From a virus, in the IMG/VR virus record IMGVR_UViG_3300013130_000036, positions 1 through 27,918 of that record: a stretch of DNA of 27,918 nucleotides. The stretch is one strand, 5' to 3'. The position numbers and the translations under genes are program-made. Below are positions 13,645-20,162 of the stretch, one piece after another. The notes under the pieces are model-generated. The model was not told the DNA's origin. It worked only from the letters and a program-made list of their open reading frames with translations, and did no database searches. The stretch's first letter is position 1. Each line of letters opens with the position of its first letter.

Positions 13645-15039
13645 TTATTTCTTAAGTTGATTCAATAAAGTTTTGAGTTTTGCGCTCTGTATATCTACTG
13701 CTATTTTAGGCTGAGGGTCCTCATTAACAGGTTCTAAATCGTCATTTATACGGCTAACTGCTTTAATTTGGCTTAATAATTGTGTTCCTGAAGGTTGAGC
13801 TTTCTTGTCTTCTATTCCATCATCTGTAATCCTTAGTGTTTCAACGTCAAACTTGAGTTCGATCTTTTGTCCTACACCCGAACTGCTACGTGTTTTCATC
13901 AACTGAATCTGATATAATCCACGCTCACGCATACTGCGACTTGTAAAGATACCGAATACATTATCAGCAGTATTGATCTTACTAATACCACCTGAGATGT
14001 GACTATGATCGAATTCGATTTCTTCAACTGCGCTACGATTTAACTGACTCGCTGTGACAAACAATACGTTTAGTTCCTTAGCCAAATTACGTAATTCTTC
14101 TGATACATACTTGTCTTTGACAAACAGATCGCTAGGACTGACCTTGGCGCTTACTGGCATGATCAAATCAAGATAGTCGATACACAAGAAATCAACACGC
14201 ATACCTGTCTGTATCTGTAATTCTTTGACATATGCTCTGATATCATTAACATTGCTTTGTGCAGGCATATACTTAATACGCAACTGTCCTGCTTTCTTTG
14301 CGACCATCTTGACTTTCATCTCGACATTATCGATGTCTTTGAAAATCTCACGGCTACTTGTGTCAGTCATCATGCTATCGATACGCATCGAACACAAGCC
14401 CTCGCTCAATTCAAGAGTGATATATACACCGCTCAATCCATTTTGAACCCAATTAACTGCCAAGTTCTGCATGATCAAACTCTTACCAGAACCTGATCCA
14501 CCTGCAAAGATTTGTAGTTCACCTCTGTTGAAACCACCATATAATTTCTGATCAAGTGTTGGCCAGCCTGTACTGTTTTGTCCATTGCTCGACTTCAATG
14601 CCATGAGTCTTGCTCTTGGATCAGCAAAATAATCTGTACCCATGTCCTTCTGTAGAGAAATCTGAACAGCATCTTTGATCAGTTTCTCTACAGGTCCATA
14701 CTCGCCCTTCTCAAGATGATCAGCACTCTTAAGAATAGCCCTCTCAAGTTCTTGTCGTTTAGTAAATGCCTCGAATTCTTCAAGGAACCACTCATAATGA
14801 CCTTCATCTAATTCGTCCAATCTATCAATGCTCACATCAGTTGTAGCCTTGATTTGTACTGGATCTGGCATTACATTATATTTCTTTGTATGTTCTACAA
14901 CGAATTCAGCAACTGGACGCAATCTCCTATCAAAGTTTTCGCTATTCATAATATTCATGACACGGGTATAGAGTTCCGCGTTAGTAACCATCATTCGTAA
15001 GAATAACGTTTGTACATCAATGTTGTAGTCGTTTATCAA
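13645..15039 (-). CDS. 41: replicative DNA helicase, gp41-like (DnaB family)
   Basis: A 464-aa hexameric helicase of the RecA-like SF4 family. Walker A is GGSGSGKS (180-187), Walker B is the aspartate in FLCIDYLD (284-291), and 'ISGGISKINTADNVFGI' is the conserved H4-like region. The N-terminal helical domain ('LRPVAEFVVEHTKKYNVMPD') matches T4 gp41 layout, and the length is close to T4 gp41. It unwinds DNA at the fork and recruits the primase, whose gene lies directly upstream and overlaps it. The start is a TTG (15039-15037) backed by AGAGGA 8 nt upstream; the first internal ATG would remove part of the N-terminal domain. Confidence 0.92.
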   Translation of the reverse strand: MINDYNIDVQTLFLRMMVTNAELYTRVMNIMNSENFDRRLRPVAEFVVEHTKKYNVMPDPVQIKATTDVSIDRLDELDEGHYEWFLEEFEAFTKRQELERAILKSADHLEKGEYGPVEKLIKDAVQISLQKDMGTDYFADPRARLMALKSSNGQNSTGWPTLDQKLYGGFNRGELQIFAGGSGSGKSLIMQNLAVNWVQNGLSGVYITLELSEGLCSMRIDSMMTDTSSREIFKDIDNVEMKVKMVAKKAGQLRIKYMPAQSNVNDIRAYVKELQIQTGMRVDFLCIDYLDLIMPVSAKVSPSDLFVKDKYVSEELRNLAKELNVLFVTASQLNRSAVEEIEFDHSHISGGISKINTADNVFGIFTSRSMRERGLYQIQLMKTRSSSGVGQKIELKFDVETLRITDDGIEDKKAQPSGTQLLSQIKAVSRINDDLEPVNEDPQPKIAVDIQSAKLKTLLNQLKK

Positions 15040-15994
15040 GTTGCTTCCTCTTTATTTCTATTTTGATCTTACTATTTATTGCCGACTGCAAGATACTTAG
15101 TAATGTAGCTAGTTTCCCATATTTTATTACGCTATCATTTATATCTTTTACATCATTTTCCCAATTAGGTATGCTGACATAAAAACCCAGATCAAGTGCG
15201 CGGTCGCAAATCTGCAATCCTGTTTTATCTTGATCTGGAACAACAATAATCTTTTTGTTTAAATTTTTTAATATTTCCGCTTGTTCTTCACTGATTGTAT
15301 TATGTGTTAATGCGCAACCATTTATACTGAGCGCATCAAATATACCTTCTGATACAATACATACCTCATATTCGGGTTTTTGTAGATCATATCCAAACAC
15401 ATAACCTTGTTGCTGCTCATTGATAAATTTAGGAGTACGACCATCTAAGTATCTACTAGTATGACCCACTATTTTATTTTCATATGTATAGGGTACAATA
15501 ATACGGTCAGCCTGTCTGCCTTCCATATCAGGAGAACACATAAAAGGATAATCTTCTACATTAATTTTTCGTTTATTCAAGTATGAAACATATGTTTCAT
15601 GTTTTGGATTATTGACATCGATAAGTTCAGCATCAGGCAAATGCATCTCTTTAAATTTTATCTTTTTCTTTTCTCGTTTTGTTTTTACAAAGTCTAGCAA
15701 ATCTTTATGCTGTAAGCTTTCAAGATTATATTTGTTAATATCATCTTTATCTATTCCACAATAAGATAATAGCTGTCTTGTATTACGAGTAAGGGTTCTT
15801 CCTAATGTGAATGTACATTTAAATCCACAATTAAAACAATGATAGCTCCAGTTATCTCCATCAAACTTTATACCACCTCTTCCTCTACGATCAGATTTGT
15901 GGCCATGGTATTGGCAGCACACAGCGTTGAAACTATGCCAACCGCTTTGCGTTAATTTCTTTTTGCCTGGAACTATTTGAAGAATATCAAACAC
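15017..15994 (-). CDS. 61: DNA primase, gp61-like
   Basis: A 325-aa DnaG-type primase. The N-terminal zinc ribbon uses C26/C27, H30, C53 and C56 ('CCQYHGH' and 'YHCFNCGFKC'). The TOPRIM domain has the catalytic Glu216 in VSEGIFDALS and the metal-binding VVPDQDKTG (D254, D256). It makes RNA primers for lagging-strand synthesis with the gp41-like helicase, whose gene overlaps its 3' end by 23 nt. The start is GTG 15994; the zinc ribbon begins by residue 26, and no ATG lies between. An extended -10 (TGTTATAAT) ends exactly 6 nt before this GTG, so the transcript would be leaderless. Confidence 0.92.
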   Translation of the reverse strand: MFDILQIVPGKKKLTQSGWHSFNAVCCQYHGHKSDRRGRGGIKFDGDNWSYHCFNCGFKCTFTLGRTLTRNTRQLLSYCGIDKDDINKYNLESLQHKDLLDFVKTKREKKKIKFKEMHLPDAELIDVNNPKHETYVSYLNKRKINVEDYPFMCSPDMEGRQADRIIVPYTYENKIVGHTSRYLDGRTPKFINEQQQGYVFGYDLQKPEYEVCIVSEGIFDALSINGCALTHNTISEEQAEILKNLNKKIIVVPDQDKTGLQICDRALDLGFYVSIPNWENDVKDINDSVIKYGKLATLLSILQSAINSKIKIEIKRKQLDKRLQH

Positions 15995-17199: not shown

Positions 17200-17580
17200 A
17201 TGATTAAACCAGATTTTTTTAAAAAACTTAACGAAAACCACCCATTCATAACGGTCGTTTCCTTTGCCAATCAAGATTATGTAGGAATAATGCAGAACCG
17301 TGACGACCAATGTACTAGCATCTACGATTATGGTAGTATAATAGATACTAAAGTAAAAGAGTTATTCCTGCAATTGGGTGATATTTGGTGGTGGGAAAGT
17401 AACCGTCAGATACCTATAAACATTTTTCTAAAAGAAGAATGGAGTCCTTTTAAGCCTTATCTTAGAACGTTTAATAATAAAAATCTTACTATACTTCATG
17501 GTCCTATAGTAAGTATCAGCGAATTTAATACGCGCAGGTCTAAGCGTAAAAGCATAACTCTTGTTAAACGCTTAAGTTAA
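17200..17580 (+). CDS. hypothetical protein, isolated plus-strand gene
   Basis: A 126-aa protein. It contains 'HPFITVVSFANQDYVGIMQN', a Trp-rich segment 'LGDIWWWESNRQIPI' near residues 65-79, 'FLKEEWSPFKPYLRTF' and a basic end. It is a small globular cytosolic protein with no recognised family. From memory, comparable short proteins with 'GD.WWWESNR.IPI' occur in aquatic phages. It is the only gene on the plus strand within 26 kb of minus-strand genes, and its end overlaps the deformylase gene by 9 nt in convergent orientation. A weak AGTAAATA lies 16 nt upstream of its ATG. Confidence 0.65.
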   Translation: MIKPDFFKKLNENHPFITVVSFANQDYVGIMQNRDDQCTSIYDYGSIIDTKVKELFLQLGDIWWWESNRQIPINIFLKEEWSPFKPYLRTFNNKNLTILHGPIVSISEFNTRRSKRKSITLVKRLS

Positions 17581-18054
17581 TTTTTTCTTTCTGCGTTTTT
17601 TTGCGAAATCTAGGCTTACTGGACCTACCCTAGTATCAAAACACACACCATTTAGGTGATCTAATTCGTGTTGATATACGCGCCCTATCAAACCTGAATA
17701 GGTAGCTTCTATTGTATTACCGGCTATATCTTGGTATTTTACTTTAATAGATTTATATCTTTTCACTTGAAGCCAGAGATCAGGGAAACTCAAGCAGCCC
17801 TCAGTGTCTCTATATTCTTCTAATCCTTCAATGATTTGAGGATTTATGCAAACAACAAGTTTGTCACTATTGCCCATTATAAACAATCTTTTGAGAATTC
17901 CGACTTGGGGTGCGGCGAGTCCTATACCATTATTTTCAAACATGATCTTAGTCATTTGCCTAACTAATTCCGTAGGATCACCGTCTGCTGCAAAGTCATA
18001 TTGTGTTGCAGTCTGTCTAAGTAATGGGTCGTTTTCTTTAAGTAATTGTACCAT
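17572..18054 (-). CDS. def: peptide deformylase
   Basis: A 160-aa protein with all three deformylase motifs: GIGLAAPQ (43-50), EGCLS (85-89) and QHELDH (128-133). The metal ligands are Cys87, His129 and His133, and the catalytic Glu is 130. It removes the N-formyl group from nascent proteins. Several marine phages carry a deformylase, thought to speed processing of host or phage proteins during infection. The C-terminus after 'DTRVGPVSLDFAKK' ends in a short basic tail. The start overlaps the DnaE-like gene by 17 nt, so it belongs to the long 17572-22573 operon. Confidence 0.95.
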   Translation of the reverse strand: MVQLLKENDPLLRQTATQYDFAADGDPTELVRQMTKIMFENNGIGLAAPQVGILKRLFIMGNSDKLVVCINPQIIEGLEEYRDTEGCLSFPDLWLQVKRYKSIKVKYQDIAGNTIEATYSGLIGRVYQHELDHLNGVCFDTRVGPVSLDFAKKRRKKKLT

Positions 18055-18613
18055 CTTTGATTAAATTCATATTAACTACTACAAGATTTGCATAAGCAAC
18101 TGCGTGTGATTTTTTAAAACTGTAACTGTCTTCTTCTTTGTCCCATATAGTTTTATTGATCTCTGTCCAAGTTTTTCCTATCAAATGTTTTTTTGCAGGA
18201 CGTATAACAGCCAAAAACATTGATAGCCTAGGTATAGTATTTACAGGTTCAGGCATCTTACAGAGTGTATTATAATGATTTCCTATATGTATCAATTTCT
18301 CTACTATATTTTTATCTTTCAACATAGTCCAGTCTGGTTCTCGCATCAACTCTATAAGATGTTGTTCATTCTTCACATAATTATATAGATTAACATTGAG
18401 TATATCTAATTTAAAATATCCACGTTGCTCTGCTAATTCATAGTTTAAATTACTAGATTTATATATGGGATTATAAGGTATATCTGTGACATAGATTCCT
18501 GTAGGATGTTTTTTAAAGTTATCATTTTTAATGATGCTGGCAGTATTATGCTGTATTTTTGATAGCAACTTATCTCTGTCAGCAAGGTCTATGTCAATGT
18601 CAGTAGCAATCAT
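18038..18613 (-). CDS. miniature DnaE-like protein (bacterial Pol III alpha palm motifs)
   Basis: A 191-aa protein holding, in the same order as bacterial DnaE, four signature blocks. DIDIDLADRDKLL (5-17) corresponds to 'PDxDxDF...R', which carries two catalytic Asp. YFKLDILNVNLY (66-77) corresponds to 'KxDFLGLxxL', which carries the third. LSMFLAVIRPAKKHLIGK (130-147) corresponds to 'dLiAlxALyRPGP'. FKKSHAVAYANL (166-177) corresponds to 'FNKSHAxAYA'. DnaE itself is over 1100 aa, so PHP, fingers and tau-binding parts are absent. It may be a minimal polymerase-like or regulatory protein. It overlaps both neighbours (deformylase and SGNH-like gene). The motif match is visible; polymerase activity is unproven. 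Confidence 0.7.
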   Translation of the reverse strand: MIATDIDIDLADRDKLLSKIQHNTASIIKNDNFKKHPTGIYVTDIPYNPIYKSSNLNYELAEQRGYFKLDILNVNLYNYVKNEQHLIELMREPDWTMLKDKNIVEKLIHIGNHYNTLCKMPEPVNTIPRLSMFLAVIRPAKKHLIGKTWTEINKTIWDKEEDSYSFKKSHAVAYANLVVVNMNLIKDGTIT

Positions 18614-19364
18614 AATTAAACTCTAACAAGTTATCACTATAATCAAGCCCTTCATATTTACTGAAATCTACTATGTAATTAGTATTAAAATTATTTTCTA
18701 CACAATCTGCAAGTCTCATATTGTTGATTTGATTAAGATGATGAAATCTAGGATCATGGGTTTTTCCATTGATTAGATTAAAAGCTAATTTTTCAGCAAA
18801 GTGTTTTCCTGTGGTGCTTTCTTTTAAAGACACTACATGTAATGAAGTTATGCAAGATCCTGCTCTAAATGATAAGTCTATAAGATGTTCATTAGTTTCG
18901 AATGGCATTATATTACAGAGTTGTATTTTATTTTCTTTACATATTCTATTCACATCATTGAATATTTTTTGATATACATAAAGCTGTAAATTTTCATCAA
19001 AAATGTAATCATAAACTTCTGCAAAATGTGTGCCCACTCTTTTTGCTTCATCTGTCCAACCCTGCATATTAGGTATCACATATTTGCCCTGAGTACCTAT
19101 ATTACTAAGCCATTTGAAATCAGGTTTGAAATAAAACCATCTTAAGTGGCTTGAATAGCAAAAAATAATCTTATCATATTTTTGATAATTTTCTATAAAG
19201 TTAGTATAGCTATACCAAATAGAAGTAGCACTCATACTATAATTTTTGCTATGGATATTAAGTTTGTTGTTTAATATTTCAAGATAAGATAGATCCTTGC
19301 GACTTTTATCACGTAATCTATGTTCTGGTATATGTGTAAAACTGTCTCCGAATATTCCTAACAT
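18600..19364 (-). CDS. SGNH-hydrolase-like protein 2
   Basis: A 254-aa protein opening MLGIFGDSFTHIPEHR; the GDSFT block carries the probable nucleophile Ser8. 'NYSMSATSIWYSYTNFIENY' follows as block II and 'IIFCYSSHLRWFYF' as the third strand. Near the C-terminus 'DPRFHHLNQINNMRLAD' could give the catalytic Asp/His pair. It shares layout, but little direct sequence, with the protein at 7078-7884. A role in modifying glycans or lipids is possible; the substrate is unknown. It starts one nucleotide after the previous stop and overlaps the DnaE-like gene by 14 nt. Confidence 0.6.
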   Translation of the reverse strand: MLGIFGDSFTHIPEHRLRDKSRKDLSYLEILNNKLNIHSKNYSMSATSIWYSYTNFIENYQKYDKIIFCYSSHLRWFYFKPDFKWLSNIGTQGKYVIPNMQGWTDEAKRVGTHFAEVYDYIFDENLQLYVYQKIFNDVNRICKENKIQLCNIMPFETNEHLIDLSFRAGSCITSLHVVSLKESTTGKHFAEKLAFNLINGKTHDPRFHHLNQINNMRLADCVENNFNTNYIVDFSKYEGLDYSDNLLEFNYDCY

Positions 19365-19365
19365 T

Positions 19366-19617
19366 TTAATTCCATATTAATAAAAATAAAATCTCTTTTT
19401 GTTCGTCTTTTATCTCAACATAGACTTTAGGAGGATTACCTGCTAAGCGTAATATCCAACTTTCTTTATCTGCACTCCGCCATTCTATAAATTGGCTGAC
19501 TGAACTGCTAGCAAATTGATCTCTAGTTTTATTATGATAATTAGGCTGTACATTTTCTTCTAACCATAATAGCATCTCTTTATAACGCTTATATGGCATT
19601 ACGTGTCGCCTAGTCAC
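19366..19617 (-). CDS. hypothetical protein
   Basis: An 83-aa protein with 'YKRYKEMLLWLEENVQPNYH', 'SQFIEWRSADKESWILRLAG' and 'KVYVEIKDEQKEILFLLIW', a mixed alpha/beta pattern without recognised family. I start at GTG 19617, because it forms a 4-nt GTGA overlap with the DexA-like gene's stop. An internal ATG six codons later is the alternative. It is part of the long overlapping operon. Confidence 0.6.
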   Translation of the reverse strand: MTRRHVMPYKRYKEMLLWLEENVQPNYHNKTRDQFASSSVSQFIEWRSADKESWILRLAGNPPKVYVEIKDEQKEILFLLIWN

Positions 19618-20162
19618 TTCACTAAACCCAATTTCTTATAAGCCTGCTGTACTACGATGGCCTGACGTTCAGCATCATCTACAGCACGGTGACTTGTTAC
19701 ATGTCCCCCGTCTTTTAATTTAACACCTGCGATTTCGTAAAGTGTGCGAGTATCACGCACAGTATAAAACGGCCATGGTATAGGATTTGGTTTGTCTGTA
19801 AATACCTGGCGGAAAGCTGTTTCAGCAACAACTATGTCGAAGGCCGCACCGTTGCTCCATACTGCTCTACGGTTCCATCCAAACCTATAAAGTTTTTCTA
19901 AACAGTCATTAAACGAAATTCTATCTCTATCGCTCATGGCTTCTTCTAATGCAGCTGGATTTTGTTCGCTCCACCAACGTAGTGTGTCTTCATTAATGAC
20001 ACGATTATATTTTTCAGTTTGCTCTTCAATAGTAGGACGTAATTCTAATCTTTCTGCTACCCCTTCTCCATATGGATCGAACCTTACTACCCCAATAGTG
20101 AGGATGACACAATAAGGACTTGTGTCTAATGTTTCCATATCGATCATTATATCATTTGCCAT
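19614..20162 (-). CDS. dexA: DexA-like 3'-5' exonuclease (DEDDh, Rv2179c-like)
   Basis: A 182-aa exonuclease. Motif I is IDMETLDT (D8, E10), motif II is WSNGAAFDIVV (D109), and motif III is SHRAVDDAERQA (H158 with D162/D163), giving a DEDDh two-metal active site. The early 'TSPYCVILTIGVVRFDP' strand is typical of the Rv2179c-like/DexA group. T4 DexA, at about 227 aa, is slightly longer. The enzyme should degrade single-stranded DNA or RNA from the 3' end, perhaps host nucleic acid turnover. It overlaps its upstream neighbour by 11 nt. Confidence 0.85.
   Translation of the reverse strand: MANDIMIDMETLDTSPYCVILTIGVVRFDPYGEGVAERLELRPTIEEQTEKYNRVINEDTLRWWSEQNPAALEEAMSDRDRISFNDCLEKLYRFGWNRRAVWSNGAAFDIVVAETAFRQVFTDKPNPIPWPFYTVRDTRTLYEIAGVKLKDGGHVTSHRAVDDAERQAIVVQQAYKKLGLVK

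Follow-up and report, generated by a model that had tools for sequence, protein, structure and literature searches.

Split minimal catalytic alpha subunits of DNA polymerase III (Pol III) have been described from the genomes of group 2.2 jumbo phages (Iyer, Anantharaman and Aravind 2021, PMC7824862). In these phages, a C-terminal protein carries the Mg-binding Asp residues and a template-binding subdomain, and a separate N-terminal protein, encoded far away in the same genome, carries the NTP-binding (GS) region; the same phages also encode a B-family polymerase and a T4-type replication set. A short Pol III alpha is mentioned in the genome papers of CBB (CBB_328, 172 aa) and Atu_ph07 (gp316) and corresponds, by size and location, to the N-terminal protein. 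No functional study of a split mini Pol III was found in the open literature searched. Since this split enzyme has already been reported in jumbo phages, the protein analyzed here belongs to an already described family.

The gene under study is carried by an environmental fragment of 27,918 nucleotides (IMG/VR record IMGVR_UViG_3300013130_000036, hereafter called the window, at its full length). Its product is a homologue of Pol III alpha (DnaE) that covers the palm and a portion of the fingers, and we estimate at about 90% the probability that this gene encodes one half (the C-half) of a split catalytic C-family enzyme. The kinship with DnaE is visible only by profiles, PHROGs and predicted fold, the single sequence having given nothing useful against PDB and Pfam. 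In the PHROG search, phrog_11778 ("DNA polymerase") matches residues 4-188 (E = 1.7e-60), and phrog_405 and phrog_12219 also match the protein at its FKKSH motif. A profile-profile comparison of 72 C-half relatives with eight DnaE gave a probability of 95.8% (E = 7.7e-9) and paired K68-D70 with K553-D555, H36 with H511 and R138-P139 with R639-P640. The search of PDB by hmmsearch with a profile of 14 C-halves was weak (best E = 0.08), yet its top entry was DnaE. The AlphaFold2 model of the C-half (mean pLDDT 93) was aligned to 14 entries of C-family polymerases over 181-188 residues (Z 6.4-9.7), ahead of the first unrelated protein, which reached only Z 3.3; it aligns with residues 398-783 of E. 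coli DnaE (2hnh) over 187 residues (Z 8.6) and with residues 459-840 of the Taq enzyme (3e0d) over 188 residues (Z 9.7). The top eight Foldseek hits are all C-family polymerases, with modest E-values (best 4.6e-3).

Table 1. Positions in the window of the C-half gene, of its conserved motifs and of its neighbours
Feature	Position	Strand	Evidence or remarks
C-half of split minimal Pol III alpha (palm core and part of fingers)	18038..18613	-	ORF from ATG to TAA, 191 aa; phrog_11778
D5-I-D7-I-D9 (E. coli DnaE D401, D403, D405)	18587..18601	-	alignment; invariance
H36 (DnaE H511)	18506..18508	-	profile alignment; invariant
K68-L-D70 (DnaE K553 and D555, third catalytic Asp)	18404..18412	-	alignment; invariance
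R138-P139-A-K141 (fingers RPGP motif, R639-P640)	18191..18202	-	alignment; invariance partly from retrieval pattern
F166-K-K-S-H170 (fingers FNKSH motif, F756-H760)	18104..18118	-	invariance partly from retrieval pattern
phrog_11637, convergent, 126 aa	17200..17580	+	neighbour of C-half in 88/90 loci, very diverse phages
Peptide deformylase, overlaps 3' end of C-half gene	17572..18054	-	24/90 loci; neighbour, no part of the enzyme
DNA primase, same module	15017..15994	-	70/90 loci (flanks examined short)
DnaB/gp41-like helicase, same module	13645..15039	-	52/90 loci (flanks examined short)
DexA-like 3'-5' exonuclease, Rv2179c-like, DnaQ fold	19614..20162	-	48/90 loci

The earlier note on this DNA had recognized in the protein four DnaE-like motifs arranged as in DnaE; all four are present and in that order. 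Eleven positions (D5, D7, D9, H36, K68, D70, R138, P139, K141, F166 and H170) are invariant among 72 C-halves, and the Asp matching D5, D7 and D9 are also invariant in the eight DnaE. Since the retrieval patterns used for environmental relatives included R138-K141 and F166-H170, these two motifs owe some of their invariance to the selection of sequences; the patterns did not contain D5-D9, H36, K68 or D70. The catalytic residues D401, D403 and D555 of DnaE, whose retention had been proposed, correspond to D5, D7 and D70, the metal-binding triad; within D5-I-D7-I-D9, the first two Asp are those that bind metal. D9, grouped with them by the note, is equally conserved and corresponds to a further invariant Asp, D405, which lies outside the D401/D403/D555 set. 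A fold unrelated to C-family polymerases or the loss of the Asp in most homologues would have spoken against the proposal; the fold is related and the Asp are kept in all aligned homologues.

The same note held that everything else of DnaE is gone, which proved only partly right. PHP, thumb and the C-terminal clamp- and tau-binding domains are indeed absent from the 191 aa, according to length and alignment. Only 26 residues separate D9 from H36, compared to 105 in E. coli DnaE, and therefore the thumb is gone; likewise, P139 and F166 are 26 residues apart, compared to 115 in E. coli, and therefore a part of the fingers including Q687-Q689 (YQEQ) and R709 is gone, the boundaries of thumb and fingers being those generally known for the E. 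coli DnaE structure. Nevertheless, the loss of the fingers is only partial, as they include the RPGP- and FNKSHA-like motifs. A third fragment carrying the remaining fingers was sought with the DNA_pol3_finger profile (PF17657) and none was found above the cut-off: 8 of 12 phage genomes have a weak match inside the C-half gene, which is the only match of the genome in seven of them, and overall a single weak match lies outside this gene. The GS motif, located upstream of PDIDID in DnaE, is also absent from the 191-aa protein; contrary to the note, related genomes carry it in a second, distant gene.

This second small gene, which matches the GS region, was detected in all nine isolate genomes by a search with PF07733. 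Its products (N-halves) are about 170-190 aa long, belong to phrog_11127 and contain GxGRGS, a motif whose GRGS is invariant in 66 N-halves, partly as a result of the search patterns. An N-half profile matches residues 320-393 of E. coli DnaE (E = 3e-6, hmmsearch of PDB) and the DnaE alignment (E = 2.2e-8, profile-profile), and the N-half model (pLDDT 91) aligns to residues 280-395; the DnaE matches leave the first ~80 residues of the N-half uncovered. The isolate N-halves stop within a few residues of the equivalent of the DnaE "..ERFLN", just before PDIDID, and so do all 80 environmental copies, a few of them with a short tail. As the N-half corresponds to DnaE 280-395 and the C-half to 398-783, the two halves tile DnaE without overlap. 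No natural fusion of both halves was found among 78 C-half and 80 N-half frames; one N-half frame of 310 aa was considered and rejected, being merely an open stretch upstream.

By tblastn, near-full-length C-half homologues were retrieved from 63 isolate phage records (35-49% identity among the matches listed). They include RaK2-like, PA5oct-like, Atu_ph07, Phosso, SCTP-2, GAP32 and Vibrio 2.275 phages, as well as Alishewanella Slicko01 and Slickus01, whose genomes are only 141 kb. Environmental viral contigs provided at least 597 confirmed relatives. In the first search for relatives, two of four loci (L003 and L004) shared only a short KTWTEINK-like peptide, belonging to an unrelated gene, and were discarded. 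Among 84,980 species genomes of cellular organisms, 11 matches were found, all in metagenome-assembled bins of scattered taxa, and these are probably viral contigs. Several records annotate the C-half as a "putative membrane protein", for example GAP32_282 (L012:5950-6600), and the segment predicted to span the membrane probably corresponds to the final helix (168-186), i.e. the FKKSH helix of the fingers. In NC_042013, the annotated start of FDI40_gp074 (L005:7986-8561) is 27 codons late (8067 in the locus) and omits the catalytic DIDID.

Carriers of the split mini-polymerase are mostly giant phages that have a normal polymerase alongside. Both halves are encoded by 9/9 isolates and 17/27 large contigs, a proportion that reaches 10/11 for contigs of at least 244 kb. 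Among relatives, 26 phage genomes or large contigs have the N-half as a separate gene of ~175 codons located 11-281 kb from the C-half gene (11 kb in Slicko01, 30-281 kb elsewhere). One observation stands against our interpretation: an IMG/VR record of 359 kb (G017, L177) carries the N-half and no C-half, even at E = 10, which reflects either an incomplete contig or a loss or replacement. A B-family polymerase is encoded by all nine isolates tested. Neither this polymerase nor the N-half was found within the 28 kb of the window, which is probably a fragment of a much larger genome, and both absences are uninformative at this fragment size. In four records (NC_042013, OR805292, OQ508956 and OP617745), the B-family matches lie in two different open frames, and therefore gp43 looks split or interrupted there. 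Purifying selection is strong: dN/dS ranges from 0.04 to 0.18 across the pairs of relatives listed and from 0.06 to 0.17 where dS is unsaturated (below about 0.8), dS being saturated in pairs including the window protein itself.

The start of the C-half gene overlaps the end of the preceding gene and its end overlaps the deformylase gene; it therefore belongs to a tightly packed run of genes on the same strand. The DexA-like exonuclease and the peptide deformylase named as neighbours by the earlier note were confirmed in our analysis, but its "gp62-like" assignment was not. The convergent phrog_11637 gene could possibly encode a partner or a regulator of the C-half. Between the DexA-like and C-half genes, a gene on the minus strand (18600-19364) encodes a protein of 254 aa that starts with MLGIFGDSFTH and looks, by eye, like an SGNH hydrolase; it has no PHROG or Pfam match and, as it is present in only 2 of the 90 loci, it is considered a recent insertion into the conserved run. 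The N-half gene is accompanied by a GroES-like gene (Cpn10 match) in 78/80 loci and by a gp44-like clamp loader gene in 66/80. Directly after it lies a gene of ~115-134 codons (PBECO4 gp448, L213:7508-7852; Atu_ph07 gp315, L214:6428-6832), for which no Pfam match was found; its PBECO4 gp448 version was found in 76 of the 80 N-half loci, and it possibly encodes a third subunit. With primase and helicase genes beside the C-half and a clamp loader gene beside the N-half, both halves are thus encoded in or beside replication genes.

The invariance of the catalytic residues and of GRGS, the fold and profile matches of both halves to DnaE, the fixed end of the N-halves, the co-occurrence of the two halves, their replication neighbours, the accompanying B-family polymerase and the purifying selection all speak for a minimal C-family nucleotidyltransferase (Pol III alpha-type) made of two subunits. 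We consider it somewhat probable that this enzyme is a templated auxiliary polymerase. The N- and C-half polypeptides would associate without splicing, because both ORFs are too short to accommodate an intein, and would rebuild one active site. The rebuilt enzyme would make short, distributive additions of DNA at the phage fork. Working alongside the B-family replicase, it would most likely extend primers or fill gaps, similar to DnaE of Bacillus, which extends primers for PolC. A more specific proposal, which we regard as tentative and rather doubtful, is that the active heterodimer elongates RNA primers before passing them on to the B-family replicase, gene order tying each half to a different machine of the replisome (primase/helicase for one, clamp loader for the other). 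By analogy, and just as tentatively, such a hand-off could correspond in the phage to the step performed by Pol alpha or by DnaE of Bacillus.

It should be emphasized that templated polymerization is not assured, because the duplex-gripping thumb and the parts of the fingers with YQEQ and R709 are missing. The loss of the thumb is the main ground for doubt and keeps a non-templated nucleotidyltransferase as the leading rival, although we judge it unlikely; such an enzyme, acting in repair, recombination or modification, would extend the ends of DNA or RNA or add nucleotides to a different acceptor. It would explain why catalytic and nucleotide-contact residues are kept while the thumb is lost, and the Pol beta-like fold serves many non-templated transferases; however, a part of the fingers including FKKSH is retained and both genes lie in replication modules. 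A replisome scaffold or regulatory subunit of polymerase descent, whose active site would serve only for nucleotide binding, would also agree with the small size, the missing DNA-binding domains and the regular proximity of genes for primase, helicase and clamp loader. This is less likely still, since binding-only descendants usually lose some of the metal-binding Asp, whereas 72 diverse sequences all retain these Asp and the neighbouring Lys. The option of a dominant-negative decoy of host Pol III, put forward in the earlier note and in keeping with the homology to host DnaE, appears very improbable because the protein retains no region for binding partners in the host replisome: the PHP (epsilon-binding), beta-clamp- and tau-binding regions are absent. 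Furthermore, identity to DnaE is only about 13-17% in structure alignments, the same genomes also preserve the complementary N-half, and the genes are inside phage replication modules. Finally, a functionless decaying remnant of a captured host dnaE, which the shortness of the protein could suggest, is refuted by the low dN/dS (0.04-0.18), the invariant catalytic residues, the constant length and split point, and the large number of confirmed environmental homologues.

If the split polymerase works, its about 370 residues in two chains would make it a very small C-family polymerase, far below DnaE in size, from which one could learn what portions of Pol III catalysis can do without. It would also bear on the reason why T4-type phages, despite having a B-family replicase of their own, retain an additional, bacterial-type polymerase. 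The conserved residues, the constant split and the availability of cultured carriers of both genes (PBECO4, RaK2, the PA5oct group, Atu_ph07 and Slicko01) make this directly testable.

Compared to DnaE from E. coli and Taq, the C-half shares the fold of the palm core, the Asp triad and the equivalents of K553, H511, R639-P640 and F756/H760, which follow each other in the same order. However, it has one sixth of the length (191 versus 1160 aa), is devoid of PHP, thumb, OB, beta- and tau-binding parts and part of the fingers, and its GS motif is on another polypeptide. It shares the palm fold of PolC from Geobacillus (3f2b, Z 9.3), but resembles DnaE in its RP and FKKSH motifs and lacks the exonuclease and other domains of PolC. 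In cyanobacteria, DnaE is encoded by two distant genes and split just before FNKSH, and inteins rejoin the full-length protein. The phage genes are likewise two and distant, but the split is before PDIDID and there is no room for an intein. The closest system is the split Pol III of jumbo phages (PMC7824862): the C-terminal family is the same and, in genomes related to the window as in the jumbo phages, a distant gene encodes the same N-terminal protein and the two halves occur together with a B-family polymerase within a T4-type replication set. By contrast, the window is an environmental fragment in which the C-half alone is visible, and the family delineated here extends to phages of 141 kb, too small to count as jumbo, and to hundreds of environmental contigs. 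Overall, this work adds to that description the abundance of the family in environmental viruses (at least 597 relatives), its occurrence in a 141-kb phage, the fixed split point (the same in 80/80 environmental N-halves examined) and the conserved neighbours of each half.
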